DNA from: Candidatus Desulfofervidus auxilii
GTDB lineage: Bacteria; Desulfobacterota; Desulfofervidia; Desulfofervidales; Desulfofervidaceae
Reading direction: 5' to 3'
Assembly (NCBI RefSeq): GCF_001577525.1
Contig: NZ_CP013015.1
Coordinates: 973,107-1,037,106, forward strand
DNA length: 64,000 nucleotides
Numbering within the stretch: position 1 is the first letter of the stretch; every line of letters starts with the position of its first letter. The notes beneath the pieces were generated by a model that did no database searches, was not told the DNA's origin, and saw only the letters and a list, made by a program, of their open reading frames with translations. Shown one piece after another: positions 1,517 to 41,387 of this stretch. The position numbers and the translations under genes were made by a program.

Positions 1517-1801
1517 GTGGAGTTTGAGACCAGGTTCTGTCCCACACTGGATAAACCCCCACTCTTTCTGTGGTGGGAAATGGATGAAATAATCGTTTTT
1601 GTGACCTGTATCGGGCTTTCTTTTGTTTTCTTCAAGGAAGCACTGCCGGGAACGATAGCCGGAATCATTGGCATGTGGCTTTATATCAAGATATTCAAAA
1701 AGAGAGGAAGGGTAAACAAAGTACTGCATCATTTGTGGCGGCGTGGAGTATTTGACTACCCCACGATACCTCCTGGCTACTACAGGTACTTCTGGGAATA
1801 A
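1517..1801 (+). CDS. traL: TraL-like T4SS inner-membrane protein
   Basis: A 94-residue protein with two closely spaced hydrophobic segments (about residues 20-55), the length and topology of TraL/VirB3-type pilus assembly proteins, which sit in the inner membrane with the VirB4-type ATPase. The start is GTG 1517 behind an AAAGGAG ribosome site. It is followed five bases later by traE in the F order A-L-E-K-B. Nothing unusual is seen. Confidence 0.85.
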   Translation: MEFETRFCPTLDKPPLFLWWEMDEIIVFVTCIGLSFVFFKEALPGTIAGIIGMWLYIKIFKKRGRVNKVLHHLWRRGVFDYPTIPPGYYRYFWE

Positions 1802-1806
1802 AAATC

Positions 1807-2388: not shown

Positions 2389-3061
2389 CCTTTTTGCCTT
2401 TCAGGTTGTCCAGGGAGAGGGTTATCAGTTTGTAGACATTTCTCTTAAAGACACAAACAGAATTATCTGTCCTGTCAGTATAGGACAGGCCATCTTTTCA
2501 AAAGAAAAAAACATCCAGGTGAAAATTGCCGGCCAGAATGCCTTTGTAAAAATTATTCCGCATCAGGAATTCAACCCTGAGACAGGCCAACAGAAGCTGG
2601 TTTATCCATCCTACCCCAGGGAACTCTACCTTGAATGTGGAGGAAAAATTTTCTCTCTTGTTCTGACTCCAAAGGATATTCCTGCTGAAACCATTGCCCT
2701 GAGATTGCCGGCTTACGAAAAAGAAAAAGCTACTGAATACGAAAAGAGCGGTCCCTATCGTAAAACCCTCCTGGAACTTATCAGGTCTGCCTATCTGGAG
2801 CAGCCTCCGGAGGGTTACCAGGTAGAAGAAACAAATCAGCCTCTCAAGAACTTTGACAAAATCGAGGTGTTCCTCCGGCGCAAGATGAAAGGAGCACACT
2901 ACGTGGTATATGAATATGTTATCACGGCAAAACAGAAAGTGAACCTTGATGAGATTCACTTTCTTCACATAACAAGAAATCCACTGGCAATATCACTCTC
3001 AAAACTCATACTTACTGAGGGAGAAACGGCAAGGCTCTTTATTGTCTCCAGGAAAAGCTGA
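2339..3061 (+). CDS. traK: TraK-like secretin-type outer core protein
   Basis: A 240-residue secreted protein with an N-terminal signal sequence ending around Ala-Phe-Gln. TraK (VirB9-like) forms the periplasmic/outer-membrane core complex with TraV and TraB. The start chosen at 2339 includes the whole signal peptide; an internal ATG at codon 13 would remove most of it. The stop overlaps the ATG of traB (TGATG at 3059-3063), so the two are translationally coupled. The central part resembles the TraK beta-domain only by general character; order and size carry the call. Confidence 0.82.
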   Translation: MKKWILILIAKLMVTSNLFAFQVVQGEGYQFVDISLKDTNRIICPVSIGQAIFSKEKNIQVKIAGQNAFVKIIPHQEFNPETGQQKLVYPSYPRELYLECGGKIFSLVLTPKDIPAETIALRLPAYEKEKATEYEKSGPYRKTLLELIRSAYLEQPPEGYQVEETNQPLKNFDKIEVFLRRKMKGAHYVVYEYVITAKQKVNLDEIHFLHITRNPLAISLSKLILTEGETARLFIVSRKS

Positions 3062-4245
3062 TGGAAAAATTCTGGGAAAATATACAGCAGGGAAACAAAA
3101 AGAAACTTTTCTACCAGGCAATAACAGGTATTGTGCTGATTATACTGGCTATCGGTGTTTATTTCATGATTAAACCCAGGGGACACAGAGCACACCCCAG
3201 GCCGGAGATTACCACCCATAAAGAAGACCTCACCAGGGAATCCTGGCTGGCCACGGCCACAAAACGTCTGGAAGAACAGCAGAGACGGTTGAAGCAGATG
3301 GAGAAGAAGCTGAAGGAAATTCAGAATATGACAAAGAGTCAGAAAGGAACTCCACTATCACCACCTCCACCGCCACCACCATCAGAAAATAAACAAAAAC
3401 AGGCCAGTCCATTCATCCCACCCCCTCCACCACCTCCTGCAAAAGCACCTACCGGAACGACTCCTCCCGTTCCTCCAGCACAGGTAAAGCAGCAGGCATC
3501 ACAGGGAATAACCGTGGAATCAATTGACCTTATAGCAGTTGTGAAGGGAAGCGGAGAGAAAAAAGTAAATTCTCCGGTAAAGACCACAATTAGGCAGAAA
3601 AAAAAGGCAAAAGAGAATATAGAAAATACTATTCCTGCAGGTTCATTCACATCCGGCATTTTGTTGTCCGGTCTTGATGCCCCCACAGGGGGGAAGGCCA
3701 GCAGTTCACCACATCCTGTTCTGATCAGACTTACTGATCTGACCGTCCTGCCCAACAAGTTTTACTCTGACATAAAAAGTTGCTTTGTAATAGGAGAGGG
3801 ATACGGAGACCTATCCTCCGAAAGGGCATATATAAGGCTAAATACTCTGTCATGTGTAAAGGAAGACACCAGCATTCTGGAAAGAAAGATAGAGGGATAT
3901 ATCTCCGGTGAGGACGGGAAAATCGGCCTGAAGGGCAGAGTGGTAAGCAAACAGGGAGCACTCCTGGCCCGCACGCTGGTAGCAGGCTTCCTTGAGGGGG
4001 CAAGCAAAATCCTTCAGCAGCAAGGCACATACGTAAGTATTTCACCACTGGGGGCCACCGAAACCGTAAAACCCGGAGAGGTTACAAGACTTTCCATGTA
4101 TTCCGGTGCGGCGGAAGCAGCGAAGAAACTGTCAGATTTTTACATGAAGCTGGTTAATGAAACTTTTCCAGTTGTTGAAATTACTGCCGGAAGAAAGGTG
4201 GAAATAGTATTTCTAAAAAAAGTAAATCTGGAGAAAAGCTCGTGA
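3061..4245 (+). CDS. traB: TraB-like T4SS scaffold protein
   Basis: A 394-residue protein with an N-terminal transmembrane helix (about 18-36), a charged coiled coil (about 60-95), two polyproline runs (about 102-140) and a C-terminal beta-rich domain (about 190-394). This is the standard order of TraB/VirB10 proteins, which span from inner to outer membrane through the proline-rich linker. It overlaps traK upstream by one base and the lipoprotein gene downstream by four bases. The proline runs are made of near-pure CCN codons, which explains a spurious glycine-rich frame on the other strand. Confidence 0.88.
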   Translation: MEKFWENIQQGNKKKLFYQAITGIVLIILAIGVYFMIKPRGHRAHPRPEITTHKEDLTRESWLATATKRLEEQQRRLKQMEKKLKEIQNMTKSQKGTPLSPPPPPPPSENKQKQASPFIPPPPPPPAKAPTGTTPPVPPAQVKQQASQGITVESIDLIAVVKGSGEKKVNSPVKTTIRQKKKAKENIENTIPAGSFTSGILLSGLDAPTGGKASSSPHPVLIRLTDLTVLPNKFYSDIKSCFVIGEGYGDLSSERAYIRLNTLSCVKEDTSILERKIEGYISGEDGKIGLKGRVVSKQGALLARTLVAGFLEGASKILQQQGTYVSISPLGATETVKPGEVTRLSMYSGAAEAAKKLSDFYMKLVNETFPVVEITAGRKVEIVFLKKVNLEKSS

Positions 4246-4977: not shown

Positions 4978-7629
4978 GTGAAAGGAAATTACTTCACGAG
5001 AATAAAAATTTTTTTCAGAAACTTCATTGAATCGTTTCTCCCGGAAGTGGACGGGCTGGAAGTAGAAGCCCTTGAGAGACTCCATGTCAAGAACCCACTG
5101 TCCAATTTTATCCTACCTCAATCGTTTGATCCTGATCTGGGATTTTTTTTCTGTGCGGATAACACAGTTGGTCTCATGTATGAGCTTCCTCCACTTACCG
5201 CTGCAGGAGAAAAAACCGTTCAGGCCCTGCGTGATGGTATCTATAAGGCAGACCTGCCGGAAGATACACTGATCCAGTTCATACTATGGGGGTCGGAATA
5301 TATAGAACCATTCCTGCAGTCCTACGTGAGCATGCGTCCGGAGGAAAAACGCTGGTTTGTGGAAAGATATGCAGATTTTTACAGAAAACACATCTGGAAC
5401 GGACCCTTTCCGGAATGGCTCTGTCCCCTGAGAAACTTCAGGCTGTTTTTCGTCCTGAAGCTGCCCTATTCACTGAACCAGTATCAGAAGAAAAAGGAAG
5501 AACTCTACCATCTGAGAGAAAGAATTTTCTCCACCCTGAAGGCCGCTGGTTTTACTCCATACAGGGTAAAACCCCGGCAGCTGATTCAGATTTACTATCT
5601 GATATTCAATCCCAACCATGACAAAAACCGCTCAGAAAGTCTCCATTATGACCCCGCGCAAGAAATAAGAAAACAGTGCATCATGGGAGATACAGTTATT
5701 GAGCAGGATGATGATTATATAAGGGTGGATGGAGTTTACGGTAAGGCTCTCACGGTACAGGCCTATCCAAAAGAAATTGATATTGGCAGGGCAAGAAACC
5801 TGGTTGGCAATATAATGGGAAACGATGCCGAGCAAATCAACACTCCTTTTTTTCTGGTACTATGTGCAAGAAGAGCAACCGAGATGGAAAAGAGGAGAAT
5901 ATACGCCAAGGAGGCAGCCACACCAAAAGCAAAGAAGATTTCTTCTTTTTCAAAAAAACACGAAGAGAGAGTGGATGAACTCCTTTACGCAACTAACAGA
6001 TTAACCCAGGATGGAGTATTCTGGAAATGCTCCCTCATCTGGTACCTCTACCATCCGGATTACCAGTTCCTCACCCGTGCAGTAAACACACTTACTCACT
6101 TTGCCCAGGGTTCACACTTTACCCTCCAGGAAGAAATTGCCAACCTACCTCTCTTTCTGGCCTGCACCCCCTTCAACCTCACCCATCCCCTGCTTGACGG
6201 TGACGTAAGGGCGACACCCGGGAAAAAACTTGCAAGAAAGAAAAGGACCCTTTCGTTTGGCAGGGCTGCATCGTATCTGGTACACAACTGTACCCATCTT
6301 TCACCTGTCCAGGGAGACTGGAGTGGAACACCCACTCCCACACTCCCATTTGTGGGAAGAATGGGGCAGGTGGCATCCATAAGCCTGTGGGATACAAACG
6401 CAAGTAAAAACACGGTAATAGTCGCCCCTAGCGGGCTAGGAAAGTCATTTCTTGCCAACCACATTGCCACTCATTACTGGTCACTGAACAGTCTGGTAAG
6501 GATTGTAGATGTGGGCTATTCCTATGAGCCTATCTGCCGGCTTTTTAACGGCCAGTTCGTAGAAATTGACCCCGCCAATCCCATTACCATGAATCCATTT
6601 TCCGAGGTGAAAGATCTGGATGCAAACATGAGCTTCCTGGTTTCCATCGTCAGCAAGATGATGAAACCAAAAGACCCTGTTTCTGACAGAGAAAGGGGAA
6701 TCATAGAAAGGGCCATCAGGATGACCTTTGAGAAGTACGGGAAAGAAACCAACATAACAAAAATAAGAGATACCCTGCTTGAAATGCACGAGAGTGAACA
6801 TGACAAACTCCTGCGGCAGATAGCTGTTGACCATCTGGCACCATGGGTAGAAGGTGGTCAGTACGGCAGGCTGGTCAATGGTAAAAACCAGGTGGATTTC
6901 CATAATCCCTTTGTGGTAGTTGAACTCAGCAAATGTGAGACACACGAAACCCTGAAAAGTGTGGTGTTGCTGATGGTCTTTTACCACCTGAGCAGAGAGA
7001 TATACCACGGTAGTGAACACTTCAAGAAAATCATTATCTGGGATGAAGCCTGGAGATATCTTCATGATGAGGTTGCAGTGGAACAGATAGAAAAGGCAGC
7101 CAGGGAGTATCGTAAATTCAATGCTGCGCTGATTATTATCATGCAGTCAATCTCAGACCTTGCCCGCAATGAAAGCACTAAAGTAATTGAGGAAAATAGC
7201 GATTTTCTGTTCATCCTTCCGCAGAAGTCAGGAGTGGTAAAGGAAATGGAAAAGACACAGAAATTCGGACTCTATCCTTTTGAATATAAACTTATCAATA
7301 CCCTGACAACACAGAAGGGAAGGTACTCTGAATTTTTTGCCATAACCTGCAAAAACGGTAACTGGGTGCTGCGGCTTCTGGTTCCTGAAGACATTTACTG
7401 GATTTATACCACCGACCCTGACGACAAAGTGCTGAGAAGCATCTTTATGGAAGCAGGCTGGCCGATAGAAAAAATTATGGATAAGTGCGTCCAGATAAAG
7501 AAAATCCCCGGACTGCGGGATTTCTGGCAGGAAGTGGCGACGGCAAAGAAAACGGAAGGAAAAGAAGTAGATCTGAACCAACTCCTGAAATACGAGGAGG
7601 AAATTCTGCGTAAAAAGGCCCATGGATAG
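4978..7629 (+). CDS. traC: TraC/VirB4-family T4SS ATPase
   Basis: An 883-residue ATPase that powers pilus assembly at the cytoplasmic face. Visible motifs: an N-terminal TraC domain, Walker A APSGLGKS (about residue 483), Walker B KIIIWDEAW (about residue 683) and a following region with conserved Arg and Gln. Length matches F TraC (about 875). The start is GTG 4978, two bases after the preceding stop; the end overlaps the next gene by eight bases. It is full length with no lesions. Confidence 0.95.
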   Translation: MKGNYFTRIKIFFRNFIESFLPEVDGLEVEALERLHVKNPLSNFILPQSFDPDLGFFFCADNTVGLMYELPPLTAAGEKTVQALRDGIYKADLPEDTLIQFILWGSEYIEPFLQSYVSMRPEEKRWFVERYADFYRKHIWNGPFPEWLCPLRNFRLFFVLKLPYSLNQYQKKKEELYHLRERIFSTLKAAGFTPYRVKPRQLIQIYYLIFNPNHDKNRSESLHYDPAQEIRKQCIMGDTVIEQDDDYIRVDGVYGKALTVQAYPKEIDIGRARNLVGNIMGNDAEQINTPFFLVLCARRATEMEKRRIYAKEAATPKAKKISSFSKKHEERVDELLYATNRLTQDGVFWKCSLIWYLYHPDYQFLTRAVNTLTHFAQGSHFTLQEEIANLPLFLACTPFNLTHPLLDGDVRATPGKKLARKKRTLSFGRAASYLVHNCTHLSPVQGDWSGTPTPTLPFVGRMGQVASISLWDTNASKNTVIVAPSGLGKSFLANHIATHYWSLNSLVRIVDVGYSYEPICRLFNGQFVEIDPANPITMNPFSEVKDLDANMSFLVSIVSKMMKPKDPVSDRERGIIERAIRMTFEKYGKETNITKIRDTLLEMHESEHDKLLRQIAVDHLAPWVEGGQYGRLVNGKNQVDFHNPFVVVELSKCETHETLKSVVLLMVFYHLSREIYHGSEHFKKIIIWDEAWRYLHDEVAVEQIEKAAREYRKFNAALIIIMQSISDLARNESTKVIEENSDFLFILPQKSGVVKEMEKTQKFGLYPFEYKLINTLTTQKGRYSEFFAITCKNGNWVLRLLVPEDIYWIYTTDPDDKVLRSIFMEAGWPIEKIMDKCVQIKKIPGLRDFWQEVATAKKTEGKEVDLNQLLKYEEEILRKKAHG

Positions 7630-8453: not shown

Positions 8454-9146
8454 GTGAATGGTGCAAGAAATATATTAAAGCAATTCACAACAGCATTTCT
8501 TTTCATCATCCTGATGGCTATCTTTGCCTCTGCCGTTTCTGCTGCCACCTATCCCATAGCCGAACCAGACCTGCTTGAAGAGATTAAAAACCGCACTCCC
8601 GCAGCAGTAGAAGAACTCAAAAAGAAGATACCTGAACTCAAAGAGAAAGTAAAAAACTACAGACCCCGCGATATTGTCAATCTTCCTCCTGCAGATAAGG
8701 ATTATTCATACACGGTTGCCCTTACCTATACCCTGCCATTTGATATTCCCAGGGTGGACAGAAACGGAAAAGTAACAGGAATTCTCTATCCAAAAGGCTA
8801 TACCTTTAATCCCCTGGATTATGTTATTTCTGACCCTCCTACACTGGTAGTCTTCAACGGAGAGAGAAAGGAAGAGGTGGAATGGGTAAAGAAAAACTGG
8901 CTTAATAAATCCAATACCATGCTCATTATTACCAACGGAAGCTGGTTTGACCTTGATAACGAACTGGAAAAACCTGTGTTTTATCTTCCTCGCCTGATGA
9001 AAGAAAGGCTGAAACTCAAACACACTATTTCAGTAGTCTATAGAGATAAAGAAAAAAGAAGCCTCATGCGGGTGGATGTCCATGCAATTAAGAAAGTCAA
9101 CTACCCCGCCCTGAAGGGCGGAGCTTGTAGCTCTGTGGTTGACTAG
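8454..9146 (+). CDS. traW: TraW-like protein, 3' end altered by an inserted RNA element
   Basis: A secreted protein (signal peptide ending AVSA near residue 31) with a TraW N-terminal helical region and a C-terminal thioredoxin-like part. TraW works with TraU and TrbC in pilus assembly in the periplasm. The family-like sequence runs to about residue 214 (VDVHAIKKV, nt 9095); the last 16 residues are encoded by the start of the structured element at 9096-9276 and have low-complexity character. The protein is therefore near full length (F TraW is about 210) with a replaced tail. The start is GTG 8454. The next gene, traU, follows only after the insertion. Confidence 0.82.
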   Translation: MNGARNILKQFTTAFLFIILMAIFASAVSAATYPIAEPDLLEEIKNRTPAAVEELKKKIPELKEKVKNYRPRDIVNLPPADKDYSYTVALTYTLPFDIPRVDRNGKVTGILYPKGYTFNPLDYVISDPPTLVVFNGERKEEVEWVKKNWLNKSNTMLIITNGSWFDLDNELEKPVFYLPRLMKERLKLKHTISVVYRDKEKRSLMRVDVHAIKKVNYPALKGGACSSVVD

Positions 9147-9561: not shown

Positions 9562-10623
9562 GTGCGCAGAGTGATCATAGTAATATCACTGATTACCTTT
9601 CTTATTGCCAGTACACCCACACCGGGCCATGCTCTCTTCAGCATGGGATGTCCAGCAAATCCCGCGACCATGTTGATGGTGCTCACAAACTCCATAGCCA
9701 CACTCTACAACGTACTCCCTATAAAAATCGGCGCCATTCCCATTGCCCCATTTCCGGGTGCCTATGAAACAAAATCAAGCTGGCCGCTCCCCATATGTTT
9801 TTGTCTTAGGCCACCTTTATTCATTCCGTTTCCTGGCATGGCCATAAGTCACTGGGAACCTATTGAAGGGTATGAGGTAGTCAAGATACCATTCTGTTTT
9901 CCTGCGCTTGGATTCGATATACCCATCACTCAGGCAGTTTCAAGAGGACTTCTGGCAGGAAAGGAAGCTGATAGTTTATCAAATGGAAAACATCAGGCAG
10001 CCTTTGCCCAGGTTCACCAGCTTACCTATGAAGTCTGGCGGGTTATCAGGTTGTTCATGGACTTTGTCTGTCTCACCCCAATGGGTGAAATAGATGTTAG
10101 CTATATCACAGAAGTTGATCCTTTCTGGCAGAACGACCTTTTAAACGCCATACTCAATGATCCAGCCACGCTCCTGTTTGCAAATCCCATTGCCCAGCTG
10201 GCATGTATGGTGGATGCGGCAAGAGCAGCACTGCCAAAGGTGGGAAAGCCCATTGATATACTTTTCTGGTGTATGGGCAGCTGGGGATCTGTCTATCCCG
10301 CTACCGGCCACACCGCCGATGAGCAGGGATATACCTGTGGTAACCTGGCAATCGCTAATAAGCAACTCTACCGCTCACTTACCGGAAAAATCATCACCAC
10401 GGGAAAGCCCACTGTAACGGGTATGTGTCAGCCCTATATCAAACCTTTCTGGAAGAAATCCCAGTACTCATGGCTTCAGCTATTTCCTGTGGTTATGGGA
10501 AAAAGGATGCCCATCGGGCGTGCATCAATAACCTGGAGCTATCTCAAGAATCCTCCGGTTCCTGGCAAATGCGACCATTTTGTCTGGATGCTTTACAGAA
10601 AAAGAGAATGCTGTGCCTTTTAG
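9562..10623 (+). CDS. traU: TraU-like pilus assembly protein
   Basis: A 353-residue secreted, Cys-containing protein. After the signal peptide come the features expected of TraU: a CPANP segment, an ICFC Cys pair, repeated Pro-Phe-Pro-Gly motifs and a Trp/Tyr/Cys-rich C-terminus ending near CCAF. TraU acts with TraW and TrbC in the periplasm and is needed for DNA transfer. The start is GTG 9562, about 50 bases after the inserted element's ORF, so the insertion separates traW from traU without breaking traU. Confidence 0.92.
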   Translation: MRRVIIVISLITFLIASTPTPGHALFSMGCPANPATMLMVLTNSIATLYNVLPIKIGAIPIAPFPGAYETKSSWPLPICFCLRPPLFIPFPGMAISHWEPIEGYEVVKIPFCFPALGFDIPITQAVSRGLLAGKEADSLSNGKHQAAFAQVHQLTYEVWRVIRLFMDFVCLTPMGEIDVSYITEVDPFWQNDLLNAILNDPATLLFANPIAQLACMVDAARAALPKVGKPIDILFWCMGSWGSVYPATGHTADEQGYTCGNLAIANKQLYRSLTGKIITTGKPTVTGMCQPYIKPFWKKSQYSWLQLFPVVMGKRMPIGRASITWSYLKNPPVPGKCDHFVWMLYRKRECCAF

Positions 10624-10634: not shown

Positions 10635-12770
10635 ATGAATAAAAAGATTCTAATTCCATTTCTTATATCTGCAATCCTGATTTTCACCCACCTCGGTGGT
10701 TTCTGCGATGAACTGGAGGATGCAAAAAGAGCAGGGGAAAACCTGGGCAATACAGTCAGAGACACACTGGGTAGCCCGGAGGGAATGAACGAGAGAGTGG
10801 TAAAGCCGATCATGTCCGGTGAGACACTGATGAAGACGGTGGAAACATCGTATGAGTGCTCAACCAACCACCGTCTCTATATATCTCTTACTGAATGTCA
10901 GGAGAAGTGCCCGGGCAATTGCCAGGAATACCAGGGATTCAACGCCCAGCTGGAGTGTCCCTCCGCAGTGGAATTCCTGAAAATTACAGTCATACCATCA
11001 GGCACAAACGACTTCAGCATGGTAATCTCTCAGGACACAGATTACGATGGCAATCCAAATTTTACATTCACACCCACCTTTAAGGATTTTGCAGGAAATG
11101 ACACTCAGTACGCCAGTGGTGTATGCACGCATGGTGTGGTGGTATGCAGTCCGGGAACATGGGACAGGTGTGCCTATTATGCCTGGGGCGTGGATGAAAA
11201 CAGTCACCTTACCCTATCTCCTGTCTCTGATATGTCAGGTGCAGGACAGTGCTACTGTGTGAACAACTCCTGCGGCGGAGTTCTGCCATCCATGTTTCAG
11301 GACGTACTTCAGGACCTGGGGGCAGGAGCCTCCATGGTGCTCGCCCAGGCAAAAAATATTGCGGTCTCAAAGGCAGAATTAAAGCTGGATGAATTATCCA
11401 TAAGATTCTATGGCCAATCCTCAGATAAATGTGTACACGTGGCTGATCCTACCTATGAACAGGGAAGTTCTGCCTCAAGAACCAATCCCCAGGCTCTGGA
11501 GGAAGGATACCAGACAGGCTTTCTACCCGTCGATGAAGAAATAGCAGCACAATCTACAGATCCAGACAGTTATTACAGCCAGCTCAGTGGTTCCACTGCC
11601 ATGAACGAAGGACACAGGGGATATTTCTGCACAATAACACACGATTTTACAACACAGGAGGTAACCAATGACCCCATTACCGGAACTATCGGCACACCTA
11701 TACCACCAGCAGGCAATAATTACTGGGGCAAAGGTCTGCATATCATTACAGGACAGGTGGACCTTGGAGATAAACGCATAATAAGTGCCCGTCTTCCTCT
11801 GATCGCATATGATGATGAAATCAGGGTGTATGTCAATGAACACCTGGTATATGAAGACTGGCCTATACCTCCACTCACTGACCGTGAGGGAGATGTTCGC
11901 TGGTTCGGCTATGATATACCCATTCTACAGTACCTTCATTCAGGCACAAATGAATTCAGGGCAACAGTATCGGTTGGTTCCGATGGTGGTGAGGGATGGT
12001 TTACCTATGAAATCATAACCGCAGAACAACAGCCGGTGGTTACTTCCAGTGGAGGGTGCAATCCTTCAGAAAACTGCACTCTCAAAGATGTCCAGATATG
12101 TGATTATGCAGGAAACTGTATTTATACCCTGAGAAACGGAGAATCAACAGGTAAAACCCCGGTACCATCCTGCAAGGCATATCAGGACTCCAACAATGGT
12201 CACCGCTACAGGATATGTGTTGATGGCACACAGATGACATCAACCGACCTTGATACAGATGAAACCACGGTACTTGCATCAGGAGTTGATATGTGGTGGA
12301 TGGTGAAAAAAAGATATGACTGCAATGAAAACTATACCTATGATGCAGACCTCAGTCGGGCTACAACAGCACTTCAGACAGCCAATTCCCAGACAGGCAC
12401 CTATGAAGATCCTGTAATAGGTACAGGCAATATTCCCCTGAATCAGTTTCCCACTGATTACCAGGAATGTGAGATGGTTTGTGCAGTAACCAGAATAGAA
12501 ACCGATACCACTGCCTATCCACAGCCTGATCCTCTGGATGAAAACAAGGCCACAGCCACCACCAGCGCAACCATGAAGGAATACATCATAAAAAAGTGCA
12601 CTCAGGATGCTGAAGGAACCTGGCACTGTCCCCTTGAAGAGGGAGAAACCCGTTACAAACCCGTGGATACTGAGTGCGGCTGTATAGATATGTTTTCAGA
12701 GGCGGCATCGGCCATGCAGGCCGTATATGAGGCAAGCAGGGATATGATTTGTTCCACTGATCAACCATAA
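10635..12770 (+). CDS. traN: TraN-like mating-pair stabilisation protein
   Basis: A 711-residue secreted Cys-rich protein (F TraN is about 600 residues). The start is ATG 10635 behind AGGAGG at 10623-10628, giving a normal signal peptide; the upstream open frame overlaps traU and is not coding. Conserved features are the early Cys cluster (about 75-110), a lectin-like beta region that binds a ligand in F-type TraN (about 360-480, with VYVNEHLVYEDW), and a Cys-rich C-terminus. TraN is an outer-membrane adhesin contacting the recipient. Disulfide formation would rely on the Dsb-type proteins of this cluster. Confidence 0.9.
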   Translation: MNKKILIPFLISAILIFTHLGGFCDELEDAKRAGENLGNTVRDTLGSPEGMNERVVKPIMSGETLMKTVETSYECSTNHRLYISLTECQEKCPGNCQEYQGFNAQLECPSAVEFLKITVIPSGTNDFSMVISQDTDYDGNPNFTFTPTFKDFAGNDTQYASGVCTHGVVVCSPGTWDRCAYYAWGVDENSHLTLSPVSDMSGAGQCYCVNNSCGGVLPSMFQDVLQDLGAGASMVLAQAKNIAVSKAELKLDELSIRFYGQSSDKCVHVADPTYEQGSSASRTNPQALEEGYQTGFLPVDEEIAAQSTDPDSYYSQLSGSTAMNEGHRGYFCTITHDFTTQEVTNDPITGTIGTPIPPAGNNYWGKGLHIITGQVDLGDKRIISARLPLIAYDDEIRVYVNEHLVYEDWPIPPLTDREGDVRWFGYDIPILQYLHSGTNEFRATVSVGSDGGEGWFTYEIITAEQQPVVTSSGGCNPSENCTLKDVQICDYAGNCIYTLRNGESTGKTPVPSCKAYQDSNNGHRYRICVDGTQMTSTDLDTDETTVLASGVDMWWMVKKRYDCNENYTYDADLSRATTALQTANSQTGTYEDPVIGTGNIPLNQFPTDYQECEMVCAVTRIETDTTAYPQPDPLDENKATATTSATMKEYIIKKCTQDAEGTWHCPLEEGETRYKPVDTECGCIDMFSEAASAMQAVYEASRDMICSTDQP

Positions 12771-12788: not shown

Positions 12789-13865
12789 ATGAAGAGAAAA
12801 GTAAGCACAGCAATTATAGTTGGTTTAGTACTGATTTTTTCAAATTTTTGCTTCAGTGAAAGTCAGCCCATTCAGCCATCTGCTGAAGCTACCTGGCTCA
12901 CCGTGGGCCAGGTCTACCGGGGTGAAATTACCACAGAAAACCCATCACCGTGGTTCAGATTCAGGGTTTTTGAGAACAGACGCTACTACCTCATGGTTTT
13001 CCCTGATTTTGAAAATGGAGCAAATCCGCACGGTATCGGAGATGTAAAAATATCCGCTACTTCAAACCCGGAAACCAACACATTTCAGCTGGATAACAAC
13101 GATGCACCTGACTGGACAGAAATGGGATTTGGGTCCTTTGTTATGGTTGAGGTAATACCCCACAAAGCAACATGCAGTTATGAAGGCCAGAGATGTGGGC
13201 TTAAAAACCAGTTCAGAATTTCACAGGGCGAAGCAGAACTTTATCTGAATGTGCAGTGGGGAGGAGAAACCTACCCGGCCACAGGAACATTCACCATACA
13301 GATACTTTCGGATGACATACCCACCATGGAAGTAGAAATCGAGGTGGAAAACCCGGAAACAGAAGAGACAGAAACAAAAACAATTACCGTATATCAATAC
13401 GGTGCAGATAGAACTACATGGCTTGTAAACGGTAAGGTCACCAAACCGGCCCAGACTCCTATTCTTATAGTTACTCCTGATGCCTTTACTATAACAATGA
13501 CTGTAAATAACGAACAGCCGGTGTTTGTTGAAACTGACGCCACACAAACCTTTATCATCAGAGTTAAAGCAAAAAAGGGAAGCAATGACCTGAACCTTGA
13601 GCAGTTTCTGGTAGTGTGCGAGAGTATAGATGGTAAGTGTTATTACCTTATAGAAGACAGATGGAAGGTCTTTAAAGAAATCAGCGAAATAAGACCTTTC
13701 AGGCTGGCTCCTCTTTCAGAAGAGCCGGAAGTCGTGGCTGTGTTCCCGGCCCTCATGCTCCTGCCAGGAGAGGTTACATTCTACTATGGTTATGACCCAA
13801 TAGCAGATGAGATGCCTGATATGGACATTGCTACATACACATGGGCACAGATTGTTAAAAGGTAA
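12789..13865 (+). CDS. Secreted beta-rich protein, paralogue of the next gene
   Basis: A 358-residue protein with a signal peptide (about 1-24). It and the following gene share a common plan: a RGEI/T start of domain, an xxYxLMVF strand, a PxWTxMGxGSFxxVEVxP motif, a WGxxxxPxTGTFxIxxxxDxxP block, and a closing IRPFxxA...LLxPGExxFYxxxD block. I do not recognise the family; the pattern is like pre-peptidase or jelly-roll domains of surface proteins. It lies between traN and the giant Cys-rich protein with 15-20 base gaps, so it is in the transfer operon and probably part of the cell surface contact apparatus. It contains one Glu/Thr-rich insert the paralogue lacks. Confidence 0.7.
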   Translation: MKRKVSTAIIVGLVLIFSNFCFSESQPIQPSAEATWLTVGQVYRGEITTENPSPWFRFRVFENRRYYLMVFPDFENGANPHGIGDVKISATSNPETNTFQLDNNDAPDWTEMGFGSFVMVEVIPHKATCSYEGQRCGLKNQFRISQGEAELYLNVQWGGETYPATGTFTIQILSDDIPTMEVEIEVENPETEETETKTITVYQYGADRTTWLVNGKVTKPAQTPILIVTPDAFTITMTVNNEQPVFVETDATQTFIIRVKAKKGSNDLNLEQFLVVCESIDGKCYYLIEDRWKVFKEISEIRPFRLAPLSEEPEVVAVFPALMLLPGEVTFYYGYDPIADEMPDMDIATYTWAQIVKR

Positions 13866-13880: not shown

Positions 13881-14861
13881 ATGAAATACAGAGTTCTACT
13901 ACTGCTACTTACTCTTCTGGTGCTGCCAGGCAGCCAGGACTGTCATGGAAGTATCTTCCTGCCGTATCCAATTCCGCAGGATGCACCGGTAATCACTCCC
14001 GGTATGGCTCTGCGGGGAGAAATAACAGAAAATACACCACAGATATACTATCAGTTCAACATCGAACAGAACAAACGCTATTTTTTGCTGGTTTTCACAG
14101 AAACCATAGGAGATGTAGAAACATATCTGCTTACTCCCCAGGGTTCGACTCTTGCTGTCAGCAGTGATGCTCCGGAGTGGACACAGATGGGATATGGGTC
14201 ATTCATGGCAGTAGAAGTGCTACCTGAGGGTGTACCCTTTACGAATAACTCTCCCATCATGCAGATACATGCTGATTGGGATTCACTTTTTTTCACGGTT
14301 AAGTGGGGAAAAAATCATCTTCCCAACACAGGAACATTTATTATTGAAGTAGTGGAAGATGAGGTACCTTATGAAAATGGAAGTTATAAATACACAGGCG
14401 GAAGGGACACCTGGCCTTTCCAGGGAATAATCCTGCCTCCAGCTTATGTCTATAACGAAGGAGAAACAGGAGAAACCAGCTCAGAAATAACCATAAACGG
14501 CGAAAATTATTATTATATAAATCCCTCACTCGATGAAAGCCTGTCAAATATAGAGATAACACTCAACGGTTCTGCCAGCGCACCTGCAGAGTGGTACCTG
14601 GCCATCAGGACCTTCCGTGATGGAAAATTCACTCAGTATTACATGGATGAAAACTGGAAGTGGGTTTCATTTGAAACTATTGACCAGGTAAGACCGTTCC
14701 TCACTGCTGTTAAAGATATAAATCAGGTCGTAGTCAATATTCCTTCTGTACTGCTCTATCCTGGTGAGTATGAATTCTACTTTGCTGCTGATACCTGTTT
14801 AAATCGTGTACCTGACAGGCTCACAACTCTTGCTACGGCAGAACTTGTGAGGGAGAAATAG
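13881..14861 (+). CDS. Secreted beta-rich protein, paralogue of the previous gene
   Basis: A 326-residue secreted protein with GGGAGG ribosome site and ATG 13881. It has the same blocks as its upstream neighbour: a RGEITE segment, YFLLVF, PEWTQMGYGSF, VKWGKNHLPNTGTF, and the ending VRPFLTA...LLYPGEYEFYF. Few Cys are present, unlike the surrounding proteins. The pair most likely arose by tandem duplication within the transfer operon. The function is unknown; surface location is inferred from the signal peptide and the neighbours. Confidence 0.7.
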   Translation: MKYRVLLLLLTLLVLPGSQDCHGSIFLPYPIPQDAPVITPGMALRGEITENTPQIYYQFNIEQNKRYFLLVFTETIGDVETYLLTPQGSTLAVSSDAPEWTQMGYGSFMAVEVLPEGVPFTNNSPIMQIHADWDSLFFTVKWGKNHLPNTGTFIIEVVEDEVPYENGSYKYTGGRDTWPFQGIILPPAYVYNEGETGETSSEITINGENYYYINPSLDESLSNIEITLNGSASAPAEWYLAIRTFRDGKFTQYYMDENWKWVSFETIDQVRPFLTAVKDINQVVVNIPSVLLYPGEYEFYFAADTCLNRVPDRLTTLATAELVREK

Positions 14862-14862: not shown

Positions 14863-17800
14863 GTGAAAAAGGCTGTTTTTCTGATAATCCTTCTTATTGT
14901 TACTGCAACCCTGCCACAAACAGGATATTCCGATGAAAATGTCATGAATCTGGTGGAGATTGCCACCGAGGATGCCATGATTACCTATGCCCTGACCGTA
15001 CAGGAATACAGTCATGATGAATTCATTGATGAATTCTCAGCACCCACTTATCAGTATCACCCGGCATCCATAGAGGATGCAGGAGTAATTACACAAAATT
15101 ATAGCACTTACCAATATCTCTGGGTTGAAGAGGGACTCTTAACCGTGGCCACCGGTGAACTGTGCACTGAAGAGGAAAATTCATATCTTTGTGCAGGAAT
15201 ACACGTTCCTCTAACCAGCCGTTTTAGAGGGGTGGTAAAGTACATAGAACCAAAAGATATTCCTCCCCCAGCCGAGGAACTGTGTAACAGTATCTGCTAT
15301 GACCCATCAACAGACACCAGAAATACTCCCTTTAACTCAAACTCCTCAGTTTCAGTGGACTTCTCACTTTCAAGAGGCATGGCAGCAGTGCTGTGGGGTT
15401 ACTTCACACAGGAAGGATGTGTCATAAAGGGCACTGATGATAACAACCAGGAGGTAATGAGTCTCTGTTACAGTGGTGGAAGCTGGACCTTCACGTTCAA
15501 ACATCCTGACGGGAATACCTACAGCGTCTCAGCTCCCGCACCGCTGAAAAAGTTTCAGCATGTGGGCTTCTCGGTAAATACAAACTTTATAGGAATAGTA
15601 ACCAAGGTCTGGGGAGAAGCACAGACACACACCCAGAGGCATGATTTTCCCTACAACCCGTTGAATATGGGTGTAGCAGGCCAGCTTTACACAATTCATG
15701 TCTCCACCGCAAGGGGCATATCGGATAGAACCATCGGTGCATACGAAGGATATTTTCTGCCGTCAACAAAATTTGAACCCTTCTGCAGTGATGCCATTGC
15801 TGAGTGTCCGTATAACATTGTCGTCAGCTGGGCAAGCCCCTACTGGATTGATTCCAACAGGATGAACTTTGGCGTATTTGTCCAGACCAGCGCAGGGCCT
15901 GATACAGTAAGGGGTATGTGTACATATACTGAGTTTTCCAATCCAGCACAGTATACCTGCAACAATAACAGGGGAGATTTGTTTACAAACTCAAGTGACA
16001 GGATTGAAGATGGCTCAATAGGTGTGTGGTTTACCCAGAATTACCTTGAGGGAATTGACCCCTATATATGTGATATAACTGGTGAGCAGTATGGTAATCT
16101 GCTCAGCTGTGAGGATAACTGTTATAAACCAGGTACCTGCTCCATTGATCCGGAGCATGCCACCTGTCCCTTTGGTTCGCAATATTCATGTAACCCAAGC
16201 GGGCAGTGTGAAAGAAGTGGCTACTGTCAGGAAACAACAAAGACAGAACTCAAATATATATGTCCGGCATATCAACACCCTGATAAATATGATGACAAAG
16301 AAGAATGCGACGATAACTGTTTTATCGAGACAGAGTGCCAGGAGCAGACTGCCTATCAATGCCCGCTTGACCCAACCCTACCCTGTGATGAGGAAACACA
16401 TACATGTATAAAAACAGGAACATGCACCTATACAAATCATCCCACTTATACCTATTACTGTCCGATAAACGGCCAGGAGTATGATAATCAGCAGGCCTGT
16501 AACGATGCCTGTATTGAACAGGGAGAGTGCCAGGACAGCGGATATTATACCTGTCCTTTTGGAGACCAGTACCCATGTAATAACCAGCACCAGTGCACAA
16601 AGACAGGAAGCTGCTCTGAAATAGAGGAGGGGTATAATGTATGGGTATGCTCACTTGATGACAGTGAATATGAAACTCAATCGGCCTGTGTGAGCGGATG
16701 TGTTCAAACGGGCACCTGCACTCCACAAACAGAACCTCAATGTAGTAGCTGGTGGTGCGAGGACTGTCCTAATTCCTGTCCAGTCATCGGGAGTGTGGGC
16801 GGACATACCTTTTTCATACATACTTATAACTCTTATCATGTGTGTATTGGCTATCTAGGTAATCCCGCTGGCGGCAATGGCTGCACTGGGCACTGTATAT
16901 CTTATAACCATGACCCACAGTACATCTGGAATTGGCAAGATTGGATGGGGAATAAATATCTTGCCTGGGCAACCTGTAACGCAGATAAAACTCACTGTAC
17001 CGTTTATGTAAAGTATACACCCAATGGAAGCACTGTCTCCAGGACATTTGCACCCTGTGTAAATGTCACAAAATATAAATGCTCACTTAACAACCAGCTT
17101 TATAACACACAGACACAGTGCCTGAATGCCTGCCAGACAACAGGCTCATGTACCCAGGAGACCAGGACCCGTACCCGTTATAAGTGTTCTTTAAATGGGC
17201 TAAAATACGACACCCTATCAGCCTGTGAGAGTGCCTGCCAGCAGAGTGCCCAGTGCACCTATCATGCCCAGTGGACATGTTCCCTAAATAACCAGAACTA
17301 TACAGATATCACCACCTGTAATCAGCAATGCAAGCAGGGAGAGGAGTGTGAGACACACCAGCATGATCATTACAGCTGGGACTGCTCACTTGATGGCCAG
17401 GGTTATAGCACTGAAGCAGATTGTGAAGAAAACTGCATACAGGAGGCAGATTGTAATTCATATCTTGAGTATTTCTGTCCAATTAATGAGCAGACCTATC
17501 CTGATAGTGAATCATGTGAAAACGCATGTAAACAGCCACAGGAATGTATAGCGGTAAACGTCCCTGTGACAGGTTTTGTTTGCAGTCTGGATGGAGAATT
17601 CTATTACACCGAAGGGGAGTGTTCACAGAACTGTAAGGCCATCGCTAACTGCGAGGGGGCATACAGGTGTGACATAAACAATGGGGTCTTTTTTGACGAG
17701 GATGAGTGTAAGGAAAACTGTCGTATAAACGGTAACTGCCTTTCAATCGATGAGCATATCAGGGGAGGTGTAATCCAGAACCACTCCCAGGGAGAATATT

Positions 17801-20451
17801 CTGAAGATTATGCCATGGAACTTAACTCGGTACCTCTTGAAATGACCTTTGAAAAAATTGGATTTTTTAGAGATATTCACTTTAAACTTGGCTATGAGAG
17901 CCATAGGCACCCTGACTGGCTTGAAGGAAATTATAACTGTATCTGGAAAGACACAGGTATTATTCCCAACTTCTGCACCGAAGGCCAGGTGGAAACAGAT
18001 GATGGCTGTTTCAGGCAGATTGCCCATCTCTGCCCTGATGATCACTATGAAATTCCCGATGCCGGCATTCAGGGCACATCTAACGATAAACAGTGGTGGT
18101 GCTACCGCTTTGTGGAAGACGCCTCATGCTGGGAGGATGATGAAACACAGTTTGGCAATGGATGTTATATCTTTGCCAGCCCGGCACATCCCACAATATG
18201 CCCATCAGGTTCAACCCTTATACCATGGCCGGAGCAAAACTATATGTGTCTCTTCCAGCAAAACCCCTTTACAGACCCTTACTGTCCTCCAGGCCAGCAG
18301 GCCTATGAAGGAAACTGTTACTATACAGCTACCCCTACCTGTCCTTCAGGCTGGACAAGAAATGGGGGAATCTGCGAAAAAACAGAAGATGCCTGTCCAC
18401 AGGGCTATGACTATATCCTGTTTAATGTAATATGTCGGTCTGGAAATACCTTTGCTGACCCATCTGACGGCACCTGTAACGGTTGTCCTGCCGGGTATAG
18501 CTGCCTCACAAATTATGAGGTCTGTTACCAGCAAACTGCCTCATCACCCCCATGTCCCTCTGGACAATATGAATATTACGACCTTTGCTTTTATACATCA
18601 GCTCCTTCCTGTAGTTCTGGCTGCAGCAGAGATGGAGGTACCTGTAACTGCACCCAGAGTGCGTGCCCCGCTGGTTATGACTACTTTGCAGATATGGATA
18701 TTTGTTATCAGTGGACACAGGTTGCCTGTCTGCCCGGTTACACCTGGAACGGTTCAAGTAGTCTCTGCGAAAAATACGAGGAGGCACAATGTACCAGCGG
18801 TGAAAGAAAGAACGACCCCGAAACCGGAGAGGCAGGATGCTATATCTTTAAGAGACATATTTATTGTCGAACCCAGAATCCTGATGACCCCTGCACGTAT
18901 GGAAATCTGGTATTCTACCAGGATGATTGTTACTGTAAGTCAGAGCCAAATTGTGATAATCTGAATGAAGACGTCATTATAGGCACCACACATAAAAATC
19001 CTGATACCTGCTGGGCACTGGACCATAAGGTATGCCCGGCTGATAACCAGTTTAAAGACAGAGGAGAATTGAAGAGTGAAGATAGATGCCTGGAAAAGGT
19101 GCTCTGTCCTGAAGAAGTCAACAAACCTGCTTCGGCAGGGGATACTACCTGGACACTGGCAAGGGTGGCTGCCTACCAGAACTTTGGCAGCACTGAGTCC
19201 ATTGGTCTAAGAGGGGAATATACAGATACTGAAACAGGCATTACCTACGGCATATCTCTGCCCACAGGACAGACTGTAGGAGAATCAGGATTTGCCTCAT
19301 GTCCCCTTGGAAATGGCAGTAAATGCCAGGAAATCATTCCTTTTTACTGGGCATGTGGGTCGGAACACCAGTGCGATGCCTGTTTTGCCCCACCACTCAA
19401 TCCCTATTATTCCATCACCAGGGTAAAGGCTGTTAATCCTACGGCAGGACCATATTATGGAATTACACTGGATACATACACTTACAATCAGGCACAGACC
19501 CTGGCCTCGGAATACAATGGATTCTTACCCGAAGACTCAGATGCTGCAAATCTTGCTTCACTCTTTAGTGGAGTTTCTTACTGGAAAGAAGGCCAGCCCT
19601 CAGAGGACGAAACAGAGCACAGGGCGGTGATTATAAAATGGAACAACCTGGGTACAGTGGGATTCTATGCCCGCTGTGTCTATGACGATAACAAAGACCC
19701 TCTCTGTCCGGGATTTCTGGTTGAATGCCAGAATGGAGAGTGCCCGTTCACTGATGACCAGGGAAATCCGCTTCCCTGTCAGCCTTATGAGGGAGGGCAG
19801 TACTGCAGTCCGTTTAAATGTAACAGTCTGGTTGACCCTGCCAATATACCCGAACCTGATGAAGGAGAAGAAAACGATAAAAAGGATGATGGCACCATTG
19901 ATGAGTATGGAAACTGTCTTGGCACCATCTATATATTCAACGGGCAGACCATATTCTGCCGTGATAACGGAATTAAAACCCTTGGTGTGGACTGCTGTGC
20001 AGACCCGGGTGGGAATTTTCTCTTTTTCAAGATGAAGTGCAACGAGCAGGAAGTACAGCTGGTTGAGGCCAGAAGGCATGGTATGGCCCATAAGGTGGGA
20101 GAGTTCTGTGCTCTGAAGATTTTTGGTATCTGCTTCCAGCCAAAACAGTCCTGGTGCGTATTTAAGTCCATGCTGGGAAGAATTATTGCAGAACAGGGAA
20201 GACCACAGATAGGTAACGGTTTGCATGGTGAGGGTTTCGGCCCATCGTGCAGCCCATCCAACCCGGATGCCTGCTGGGGAAGTGCGAAATCTCCTGACTG
20301 CCGTGGATTTACACCGGAGGAGTTCCAGAGACTGGACTTCTCAAAGATAGACCTCACAGAATTTTACGAGCATATCAAGACCAGGGCTGAATCTGACATT
20401 CAACAAAAAACACAAGAAAAAGCCATGGAACAGCTACAGCATTACTACTAG
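14863..20451 (+). CDS. Giant cysteine-repeat surface protein of the transfer operon
   Basis: An 1862-residue secreted protein starting at GTG 14863. Regions in order: signal peptide; a beta-rich domain (about 150-300) with a LamG-like ring (a WTFTF strand and KFQHVGFSV); eleven or so Cys modules (about 400-960) of the form C-(S/P)-(L/I)-(N/D)-x3-Y-x5-C-x3-C-x5-C separated by Thr/Tyr-rich linkers; a second Cys-rich zone (about 1045-1370) with CPxGY/CPSG repeats; a C-type-lectin-like segment (about 1520-1605, with a WKEGQPSE motif); an acidic linker and a Cys-rich TraN-like C-terminus (about 1650-1862). Position between traN and trbC suggests an extra, very long mating-pair adhesin. No frameshift is seen over 5.6 kb. 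I know no named family for the whole protein. Confidence 0.85.
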   Translation: MKKAVFLIILLIVTATLPQTGYSDENVMNLVEIATEDAMITYALTVQEYSHDEFIDEFSAPTYQYHPASIEDAGVITQNYSTYQYLWVEEGLLTVATGELCTEEENSYLCAGIHVPLTSRFRGVVKYIEPKDIPPPAEELCNSICYDPSTDTRNTPFNSNSSVSVDFSLSRGMAAVLWGYFTQEGCVIKGTDDNNQEVMSLCYSGGSWTFTFKHPDGNTYSVSAPAPLKKFQHVGFSVNTNFIGIVTKVWGEAQTHTQRHDFPYNPLNMGVAGQLYTIHVSTARGISDRTIGAYEGYFLPSTKFEPFCSDAIAECPYNIVVSWASPYWIDSNRMNFGVFVQTSAGPDTVRGMCTYTEFSNPAQYTCNNNRGDLFTNSSDRIEDGSIGVWFTQNYLEGIDPYICDITGEQYGNLLSCEDNCYKPGTCSIDPEHATCPFGSQYSCNPSGQCERSGYCQETTKTELKYICPAYQHPDKYDDKEECDDNCFIETECQEQTAYQCPLDPTLPCDEETHTCIKTGTCTYTNHPTYTYYCPINGQEYDNQQACNDACIEQGECQDSGYYTCPFGDQYPCNNQHQCTKTGSCSEIEEGYNVWVCSLDDSEYETQSACVSGCVQTGTCTPQTEPQCSSWWCEDCPNSCPVIGSVGGHTFFIHTYNSYHVCIGYLGNPAGGNGCTGHCISYNHDPQYIWNWQDWMGNKYLAWATCNADKTHCTVYVKYTPNGSTVSRTFAPCVNVTKYKCSLNNQLYNTQTQCLNACQTTGSCTQETRTRTRYKCSLNGLKYDTLSACESACQQSAQCTYHAQWTCSLNNQNYTDITTCNQQCKQGEECETHQHDHYSWDCSLDGQGYSTEADCEENCIQEADCNSYLEYFCPINEQTYPDSESCENACKQPQECIAVNVPVTGFVCSLDGEFYYTEGECSQNCKAIANCEGAYRCDINNGVFFDEDECKENCRINGNCLSIDEHIRGGVIQNHSQGEYSEDYAMELNSVPLEMTFEKIGFFRDIHFKLGYESHRHPDWLEGNYNCIWKDTGIIPNFCTEGQVETDDGCFRQIAHLCPDDHYEIPDAGIQGTSNDKQWWCYRFVEDASCWEDDETQFGNGCYIFASPAHPTICPSGSTLIPWPEQNYMCLFQQNPFTDPYCPPGQQAYEGNCYYTATPTCPSGWTRNGGICEKTEDACPQGYDYILFNVICRSGNTFADPSDGTCNGCPAGYSCLTNYEVCYQQTASSPPCPSGQYEYYDLCFYTSAPSCSSGCSRDGGTCNCTQSACPAGYDYFADMDICYQWTQVACLPGYTWNGSSSLCEKYEEAQCTSGERKNDPETGEAGCYIFKRHIYCRTQNPDDPCTYGNLVFYQDDCYCKSEPNCDNLNEDVIIGTTHKNPDTCWALDHKVCPADNQFKDRGELKSEDRCLEKVLCPEEVNKPASAGDTTWTLARVAAYQNFGSTESIGLRGEYTDTETGITYGISLPTGQTVGESGFASCPLGNGSKCQEIIPFYWACGSEHQCDACFAPPLNPYYSITRVKAVNPTAGPYYGITLDTYTYNQAQTLASEYNGFLPEDSDAANLASLFSGVSYWKEGQPSEDETEHRAVIIKWNNLGTVGFYARCVYDDNKDPLCPGFLVECQNGECPFTDDQGNPLPCQPYEGGQYCSPFKCNSLVDPANIPEPDEGEENDKKDDGTIDEYGNCLGTIYIFNGQTIFCRDNGIKTLGVDCCADPGGNFLFFKMKCNEQEVQLVEARRHGMAHKVGEFCALKIFGICFQPKQSWCVFKSMLGRIIAEQGRPQIGNGLHGEGFGPSCSPSNPDACWGSAKSPDCRGFTPEEFQRLDFSKIDLTEFYEHIKTRAESDIQQKTQEKAMEQLQHYY

Positions 20452-20462: not shown

Positions 20463-20786
20463 ATGAAAAAGCTCACAATTACCATTCTGGTTATTGCTAT
20501 GTTCGCATCCACCGGATTTGCAGCCTGTATTACATGGGGCTACAGCGGCTACCGCCCAAACTGGACACCCCACGAGAGACTCAGGATGCGGGAGTGGGTG
20601 ATAAAGAAAAATATAACCATATCAACACTGAAAGAGCTGAAACAATCTGTAAAACAGGAATGGCCTGGCATTGGAAGATCCGGGAATCTGAATGCAGCCA
20701 CCATAATAGTTGGCAGTAACGGTAAAGTCCGGGTCCGCCTCAGGCATCCTGAGTTCAGACGCCACCCCGTGGGAGGAAAAAAGTGA
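20463..20786 (+). CDS. Small secreted protein, unknown
   Basis: A 107-residue protein with a signal peptide (about 1-20) and a basic, helical mature part ending RRHPVGGKK. It has GGGGAGG ribosome site and ATG 20463, 11 bases after the giant protein, and overlaps the trbC start by four bases. It is therefore co-translated with transfer genes. No family was recognised. Confidence 0.65.
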   Translation: MKKLTITILVIAMFASTGFAACITWGYSGYRPNWTPHERLRMREWVIKKNITISTLKELKQSVKQEWPGIGRSGNLNAATIIVGSNGKVRVRLRHPEFRRHPVGGKK

Positions 20787-21700
20787 AGAAATATCCATCT
20801 GTAGTGAAAACCCTGTTTATTCTGGCATTAACCATTATTATCGGCGTAATCCTCTTTATGGCCATTCCCTTCCTGGTTTATGGAGAAGGAAATACAGAGG
20901 CAGTAAAGAAGGCACAGAGACAGGTAGAGGAACTCCAGAAGCAGCTACAGGTCAATCCGGAACTGAACCGTTATTATCAACAGGCACAGAAGCAGGCACT
21001 TAAGCAGGTCAGGGAATTCCGCAAAAAAAGAGCACAGGAAATACAGGCTTATAACCGGCTGTTACAGAAACAATACGGTATAAACATGGAATTATCAGGG
21101 AAGGCTTCAGGTATTTCCACAGACATGAATCACTATCTCATGCCTGACGAGAGAATCTATATATTCATGAGCAGCAGTGTACCCATGGTTACCTGGAATA
21201 ACTATGCAGAAGATATTGATAAAATCAGGGACCCAAATATTGTCATGGTGCTCAGGGGTTGCATCGGTGGATGTGAACACATAAAGCCAACCCTTAAGTT
21301 CATCCAGAAAATCATAGTTCCCAAAGGGTTTTCTTCAGTGGATACCTCCCGGGAAGGATGGGAGGAAGAACTGAAGAAAAAGGCCAGAAGGGTTCAGATA
21401 TGGATAGACCCCCTGTTATTCAGGTATTACAGGATTACCGAGGTACCCTGTATTGTATACGCAAAAGACGTTCATCCCATGGACGAGCTCAGTGAGGGAC
21501 TTAAGGAAAACCTGGAGGGGAAACCGCATTACTGGAAGGTATATGGTGACTGGAAACTTTCCTATATGCTTGAAAAACTGTATGAACAGAGCAACGCCCG
21601 GAATGTAAAGAAAATCATTGAGGCACTTAACAGAAGCTGGTATTCCTCGGGAGGGGAACAGCAGGAAAAGACCAGAGGAAGCTCGCAATCAAAAAGGTAA
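20783..21700 (+). CDS. trbC: TrbC-like F-type pilus assembly protein
   Basis: A 305-residue protein with an N-terminal membrane helix, a Gln/Glu/Lys-rich coiled coil (about 35-95), and a thioredoxin-fold domain (about 125-240) with a Cys pair in RGCIGGC and the EVPCIVY cis-proline-like strand. This is the plan of TrbC of F-type systems, which interacts with TraW and TraU. The start is GTG 20783, overlapping the preceding small gene. It is the last transfer gene before the accessory island; in F traN/traF would follow nearby. Confidence 0.87.
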   Translation: MKKYPSVVKTLFILALTIIIGVILFMAIPFLVYGEGNTEAVKKAQRQVEELQKQLQVNPELNRYYQQAQKQALKQVREFRKKRAQEIQAYNRLLQKQYGINMELSGKASGISTDMNHYLMPDERIYIFMSSSVPMVTWNNYAEDIDKIRDPNIVMVLRGCIGGCEHIKPTLKFIQKIIVPKGFSSVDTSREGWEEELKKKARRVQIWIDPLLFRYYRITEVPCIVYAKDVHPMDELSEGLKENLEGKPHYWKVYGDWKLSYMLEKLYEQSNARNVKKIIEALNRSWYSSGGEQQEKTRGSSQSKR

Positions 21701-41374: not shown

Positions 41375-41387
41375 TTGAGATAAGAAA

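Follow-up and report, generated by a model that had tools for sequence, protein, structure and literature searches.

Introduction

What is the 1,862-residue, cysteine-rich protein encoded inside an F-type transfer operon of Candidatus Desulfofervidus auxilii: an additional adhesin, or a component that conjugative systems are already known to possess? We analysed a 64,000-nucleotide stretch of the chromosome of this organism (assembly GCF_001577525.1, contig NZ_CP013015.1, positions 973,107 to 1,037,106 of the forward strand), which we call the window and whose own numbering is used below. An initial annotation of the window had described the protein as an enlarged adhesin of the mating apparatus, possibly affecting recipient choice and encoded by an extra gene with no counterpart in F.

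TraN, the surface protein by which F-type DNA-transfer systems take hold of a recipient cell, offers a point of comparison. Its tips decide the recipient species in IncF, IncA/C and IncH plasmids (PMC10516633, PMC13104618). Described TraNs fall into the classes TraN-S (550-660 aa), TraN-M (880-950 aa), TraN-L (1,050-1,070 aa) and TraN-V (891 aa, with two tips) (PMC13104618, PMC10516633). A TraN with a cysteine-stabilised base and a variable tip is known already, at lengths up to 1,070 aa and including a two-tip form. Among surveyed plasmids, 2.5% carry two to three TraN copies, and Xanthomonas plasmid TraNs of 1,882 aa are mentioned without being characterised (PMC13104618).

Results

A TraN base domain at the C-terminus

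The gene in question (14863..20451, plus strand) is an intact open frame, with a GTG start codon that is preceded by GAGGGAG and a 5' end that abuts the preceding gene. It encodes a predicted secreted protein of 1,862 aa with 139 cysteines, whose probable signal peptide (MKKAVFLIILLIVTATLPQTGYSD; 14863..14934, plus strand) was assigned by inspection of the sequence. At this length the protein stands outside the described TraN classes (550-1,070 aa).

Residues 1626-1862 (19738..20451, plus strand) form a conserved TraN C-terminal, or base, domain. PF06986 (F_T4SS_TraN) matches residues 1689-1816 with 72.8 bits (E = 4.3e-20), exceeding its curated cut-off of 23 bits. TIGR02750 matches residues 1688-1851 with 107.5 bits (E = 9e-31), short of its equivalog cut-off of 422.45, and only positions 421-569 of the 572 in this profile align to the protein. 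In an alignment of 25 TraNs (this protein and 24 others), the domain keeps the invariant cysteine, glycine and tryptophan columns, and its structure model is confident: beyond about residue 1685 pLDDT mostly exceeds 80, with a dip near residues 1785-1795. Searches of the PDB by profile and by fold returned no significant relative of the domain.

The two profile matches uphold the TraN-like C-terminus that the initial annotation had recognised. Its further statements, that the gene lies next to traN and that no F-plasmid gene corresponds to it, do not stand: the TraN C-terminal domain is present, the protein contains the only PF06986 match in the genome, and the supposed traN nearby encodes the N-terminal half of a TraN divided in two, described below. 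Because the protein ends in a domain matched by PF06986 and TIGR02750, holds the sole PF06986 hit of the genome and is encoded at a tra operon position, we assign it as the predicted TraN of this genome, not as an extra gene beside traN. The large size and multi-domain build of the protein, and the resemblance of its neighbour to TraN, would fit an unrelated extra adhesin standing beside an ordinary traN; with the single PF06986 hit of the genome inside the giant protein, however, and with a neighbour that has no TraN C-terminal domain, we regard that explanation as extremely improbable.

The transfer operon and its surroundings

The TraN genes sit between traU and trbC inside an F-type transfer operon. 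The head of the operon encodes a DsbC/thioredoxin-like secreted protein (318..1100, plus strand; PF13098, PF01323), a plausible disulfide helper. There follow traL, traE, traK and traB (1517..4245, plus strand) and the gene for the TraC ATPase (4978..7629, plus strand; PF11130, TIGR02746). An S26 peptidase gene stands between traC and a probable traW (8454..9146, plus strand), which has no Pfam match and is named from its position and from relatives that occupy the same place in related loci. The TraN genes are bounded by traU (9562..10623, plus strand; PF06834, E = 4.7e-74) and by the pilin assembly gene trbC (20783..21700, plus strand; PF09673, E = 4e-23). The rest of the operon, comprising traF, traH, one further gene and traG (38826..45263, plus strand), lies 17 kb downstream behind inserted genes. 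The interval of about 17 kb between trbC and traF (21700-38300) holds a pair of genes for a methylase and an SNF2-type helicase (27613-33893), genes for an HD protein and an RNase H-like protein, and toxin-antitoxin-like debris; this block may be a later insertion.

The transfer system is chromosomal, in a single-contig genome. Searches for relaxases of the MOBF (TrwC) and MOBH (TraI_2) families, the two that were covered, found none in the genome, and the coupling-protein (PF10412) match in the window falls in a short ORF of 243 aa (50905-51636). Because no such relaxase was found and the coupling-protein match is short, the system may have lost the ability to transfer DNA on its own. Together with the chromosomal location and the foreign genes between trbC and traF, these observations would fit an explanation in which conjugation has been lost and the pilus and giant TraN have been kept as a cell-cell contact organ, for aggregation or partner attachment, with the cysteine-module arm as its adhesin. 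We consider this somewhat unlikely, since the reading frames for the pilus and the mating pair are unbroken, and since a longer coupling-protein-like ORF, of 823 aa, is encoded elsewhere on the chromosome (C1:861552-862667, about 110 kb upstream of the window). Our preferred reading remains that of a TraN acting in mating-pair stabilisation.

The segment 53187-59069 of the window comprises a gene for a small protein (53187-53534), a radical SAM gene that an IS21-like element (54378-56741) divides into two pieces (53531-54331 and 56972-57541), a second radical SAM gene (57504-58661) and a gene for a precursor with HYSHYSHSSHYSHYS repeats (58791-59069), the radical SAM and transposase domains having been assigned from domain profile matches. 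We take this segment to be a His-Xaa-Ser-type peptide-maturation cluster. Two IstB-like proteins of 249 aa share the same start sequence (L153:1493-2242 and window 54378-55127), so the IS21-like element is present in at least two copies, the one at L153 some 18 kb upstream and the other within the window itself. By inspection, the minus strand at the window end (61881-62452, together with locus L154) carries a cas2-like gene and the end of a cas1-like gene, with Cmr-like genes downstream.

A TraN divided between two genes

The gene downstream of traU (10635..12770, plus strand), here called the N-part gene, encodes 711 aa from an MNKK start preceded by AGGAGGG; the first possible start in the ORF list is at 10425. 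Neither the TraN C-terminal domain nor any other family was found in this protein with Pfam and TIGRFAM-type profiles. Its sequence corresponds by homology to the base and tip at the N-terminus of one-piece TraNs, aligning with the N-terminal part of an 895-aa one-piece TraN (L070) at E = 2.5e-69 and, across its own full length, with an 838-aa one-piece TraN (L024) at E = 6e-43. Residues 304-441 of the latter match positions 235-379 of the IncA/C-type TraN model NF011458. This stretch overlaps the tips reported for TraN-M, at 230-360 and 205-354 (PMC13104618), and the alignment with the window N-part extends through it. The tip of the window N-part resembles those of a Sphingobium-type N-part (L114), of L033, and of N-parts from Citrobacter (L129) and E. 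coli (L133); other N-parts in our set have quite different tips.

Because the N-part is homologous to the N-terminus of one-piece TraNs and the C-terminal domain lies on a separate ORF, TraN is here, as judged from sequence, split over two genes, the N-part gene at 10635-12770 and the C-part gene at 14863-20451. Two genes stand between them (12789..13865 and 13881..14861, both on the plus strand). Their products are secreted proteins and paralogues of each other, with 29.6% identity, and no relative of the pair was found in any related locus.

We gathered 101 TraN-C ORFs by similarity to the C-terminus of the window protein. A separate N-part gene is present in the same locus for 71 of the 101, the N-part is fused in 10, and the remaining 20 have none, in part because of contig ends; the set is redundant and rich in near-identical sphingomonad loci, and these counts are not population frequencies. 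Most separate N-part genes are adjacent to or overlap their partner, and in a few cases they lie further off or in swapped order. The plasmids pLD91-1-76kb of E. coli and p51929 of Citrobacter carry the same adjacent pair of N-part and C-part genes, of which one or both are annotated as TraN.

Cysteine modules and further repeats

The eleven cysteine modules that the initial annotation had described are present. The pattern [YFW]-x-C-x12-C-x3-C-x5-C, our type A module, occurs exactly 11 times in the protein, at residues 401, 465, 531, 594, 738, 773, 804, 839, 870, 905 and 934; module 2, at residue 465, has a spacing of x14 instead of x12. The linkers between modules vary, also as described. 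Composition shuffles of the module region gave a mean of 0.05 modules and a maximum of 3 (20,000 shuffles), against 11 in the real sequence, and shuffles of the full protein gave a maximum of 2 (5,000 shuffles). A profile built from the eleven modules and run against the whole 2.54 Mb genome returned the same 11 copies and no others.

Three elements had gone unmentioned. Three shorter modules of the form C-x7-C-x5/6-C-x5-C, at residues 435, 500 and 564, alternate with the first three type A modules; an insert separates modules 4 and 5; and a second repeat type, CPxG...C, fills residues ~1026-1415. Along the protein, modules A1-A4 with the three shorter modules interspersed (residues 401-619; 16063..16719, plus strand) are followed by the insert between A4 and A5 (residues 627-737; 16741..17073, plus strand), by modules A5-A11 (residues 738-959; 17074..17739, plus strand) and by the CPxG-type repeats (residues 1026-1415; 17938..19107, plus strand), which also occur in the TraNs of L029, L038 and L040. 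Outside the base, the remaining ~1,600 residues are, by sequence, unique domains divided by strings of cysteine modules that recur in other TraNs.

Alternating linker lengths hint at a pairwise duplication of modules 5-11, an idea we dropped because odd- and even-numbered modules are not more alike among themselves. A possible origin of the type A module from an N-part motif was considered from a look-alike in the window N-part, YECSTNHRLYISLTECQEKC, which scores only 2.6 bits.

The N-terminal domain (residues 25-400; 14935..16062, plus strand) had been called LamG-like, and the segment at residues 1416-1625 (19108..19737, plus strand) C-type-lectin-like. Neither likeness could be confirmed. 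Both regions are without a meaningful Pfam match even at E = 10 and without a PDB match, the Laminin_G_3 and Lcl_C profiles had no hit in the ORF, and searches for homologues of the two regions in 395 genomes returned chance-level rows only. The model of the lectin-like segment, with pLDDT mostly 25-50, is too poor to use. Both profiles do match elsewhere on the chromosome, with two clear Lcl_C copies at C1:2093676-2094698, inside an ORF of 1,265 aa, and a clear Laminin_G_3 domain at C1:1639768-1640283, in another gene.

Modules and inserts in other TraNs

Short cysteine modules are beyond the reach of BLAST, and we therefore used profiles to search for them; when the module region was compared with 72,556 plasmids by tblastn, nothing matched at E = 0.01 and only chance rows appeared at E = 10. 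With a profile built from 26 type A modules, ten TraN-C ORFs of the set outside the window were found to carry one to three copies each: three in L080, L056 and L053, two in L038, L039, L035, L041 and L030, and one in L046 and L047. The same profile matches an RHS-repeat protein and, more weakly, two other ORFs, of which one is an N-part. The window-derived module profile matched four of 395 genomes of the phylum, in three TraNs and one RHS-repeat protein, so homologues of the module are not confined to places outside conjugation loci. Eleven type A modules are the maximum in the set, the next highest number being three. Relatives of the whole protein, sought by peptide pattern and tblastn in genome and viral contigs, were not found, nor was any TraN found in the viral contigs.

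Complete TraN-C ORFs of the set range from 186 to 1,917 aa, with a median of 473 aa. The longest among the relatives come from a Desulfurobacterium MAG (L038; 1,917 aa, 178 cysteines) and a Syntrophales MAG (L080; 1,594 aa). The size of the window TraN is extreme, not unique.

In a maximum-likelihood tree built from the C-terminal domain the module carriers are scattered, and well-supported branches force at least six label changes; the tree does not support the view that type A modules were gained once and never lost. The window protein forms a long isolated branch (0.95) of unsure exact placement.

In L038, L039, L080, L041 and L030, two type A modules flank a stretch of 70-140 residues that is dissimilar between proteins; the inserts of L041 and L030 end in a short module, which is conserved. 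Residues 627-737 of the window protein, between modules 4 and 5, are the positional counterpart of these inserts and a candidate recipient-sensing domain. The identity of L038 and L039 is 66% in the N-terminal region, rises to 81% in the module preceding the insert, and is 64% beyond the insert and 69% in the C-terminal region. The alignment score of the inserts themselves, in this one pair, is 32, a value that shuffled sequences also reach (mean 18, maximum 42).

These inserts bear on the role of the modules. The cysteine modules could act as a purely passive spacer, holding the N-terminal domain further out, with the choice of recipient made wholly by the N-part tip as in the TraNs of IncF and IncA/C. 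The window N-part does bear a TraN-M-type tip common to E. coli, Citrobacter and Sphingobium proteins, and tip swaps alone alter specificity in known TraNs (PMC13104618). A C-part insert that is wholly different in close relatives, between two conserved modules, would however be needless for a mere spacer, and we judge this explanation unlikely.

The RHS-repeat protein (L152:4815-11318, minus strand; genome G310) is of the RHS/SpvB type, 2,167 aa long, and carries a module-insert-module-CPAG cassette amid its RHS repeats. Because this cassette closely resembles the arrangement in L080, it suggests that module, insert and module can move as a unit. Tentatively, and with more doubt than confidence, we propose that two Cys modules and the variable insert between them form a recognition cassette open to exchange, which would have been swapped among TraN C-parts, amplified to eleven modules here and inserted in an RHS-repeat protein; split TraNs with recognition domains on both chains might then test several receptors at once.

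A model of the module fold

A two-module model of A5-A6, computed from a 15-row alignment, has a mean pLDDT of 77 and a pTM of 0.42, and a strand-helix-strand element is seen in it twice. A repeated fold, which the initial annotation had made a touchstone of its description, is thus predicted. A small fold repeated along the cysteine modules is plausible, their relative placement not being fixed by the model. Foldseek and a second fold search gave no significant relative of the module, the second returning other folds only, with Z at most 2.2. Kazal/follistatin-like small disulfide domains share the strand-helix-strand shape and the "CxxxGxxY...C...C" look but differ in cysteine spacing, a resemblance and not a match. 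In the Foldseek rows, follistatin and dipetalin were very weak (E 7 to 10), and neither search gave significant support for a Kazal-like fold of the module.

Discussion

In our view the giant protein is likely to be the C-terminal part of a TraN encoded by two genes in a chromosomal F-type (MPF_F) system, and to act as a multi-domain mating-pair stabilisation adhesin. The idea of an enlarged adhesin of the mating apparatus that may affect recipient choice was sound in that the protein is the predicted TraN and TraN tips decide the recipient species; the idea of an extra gene without F counterpart was wrong.

Like other F-type TraNs, the protein has a C-terminal base with invariant cysteines, a place in the tra operon, a secretion signal, a richness in cysteines and variable domains on a conserved base. 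Unlike them, it reaches 1,862 aa, has its N-terminal base and TraN-M-like tip encoded in a separate gene, and carries eleven cysteine modules, CPxG repeats, an extra N-terminal domain and an inter-module insert. The E. coli pLD91-1-76kb and Citrobacter p51929 systems share the separate N-part and C-part genes and the same homologies, whereas their C-parts measure 532-619 aa and the profile found no type A module in them. The TraN of L038, from an uncultured Desulfurobacterium MAG, is likewise split and has a giant cysteine-repeat C-part with type A modules flanking an insert, but it has two type A modules, and 39 CPxG repeats against 10 in the window TraN. The Xanthomonas TraNs of 1,882 aa are similar in total length, and were compared by reported length alone. 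Our literature searches brought up neither a two-gene TraN nor these cysteine modules, which is weak evidence of absence.

How might such a protein work? By analogy with known TraN biology (PMC10516633, PMC13104618), one may infer that the protein lies at the cell surface, that its cysteines form disulfide bonds, that the two TraN halves pair and that receptors are bound. Both TraN products would be exported, and their base halves would hold them together at the outer membrane, with the C-part anchored by its C-terminal domain. The cysteine modules would fold as small disulfide-closed strand-helix-strand units, a closure to which the DsbC-like protein (318-1100) may be linked, and would serve as a protease-resistant stalk and as platforms for the variable domains, namely residues 25-400 and the A4/A5 insert. 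Their position suggests these two regions, both without detectable relatives, as putative recipient sensors. The resulting arm could be stiff or semi-flexible and carry several recognition domains. Because the variable domains and the N-part tip would touch receptors on the recipient surface, mating pairs would be stabilised and the accepted cells partly determined, and the length of the protein may carry it past surface layers. Extended reach and multiple recipient sensors are the properties that this scheme would confer.

The recipients open to an F-type element are set by TraN, and published one-piece TraNs measure 550-1,070 aa and have one or two tips. To these the compiled loci, E. coli and Citrobacter plasmids among them, add a two-gene form whose modular C-parts reach up to 1,917 aa and whose inserts can differ even in close relatives. 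They also correct an annotation, for the N-part is often called a hypothetical protein or a second TraN. The matter touched is the reading of the host range of conjugative elements from sequence. If the cassette reading is true, recognition domains would lie both on the N-part tip and in the C-part inserts, and one mating apparatus would test several receptors.
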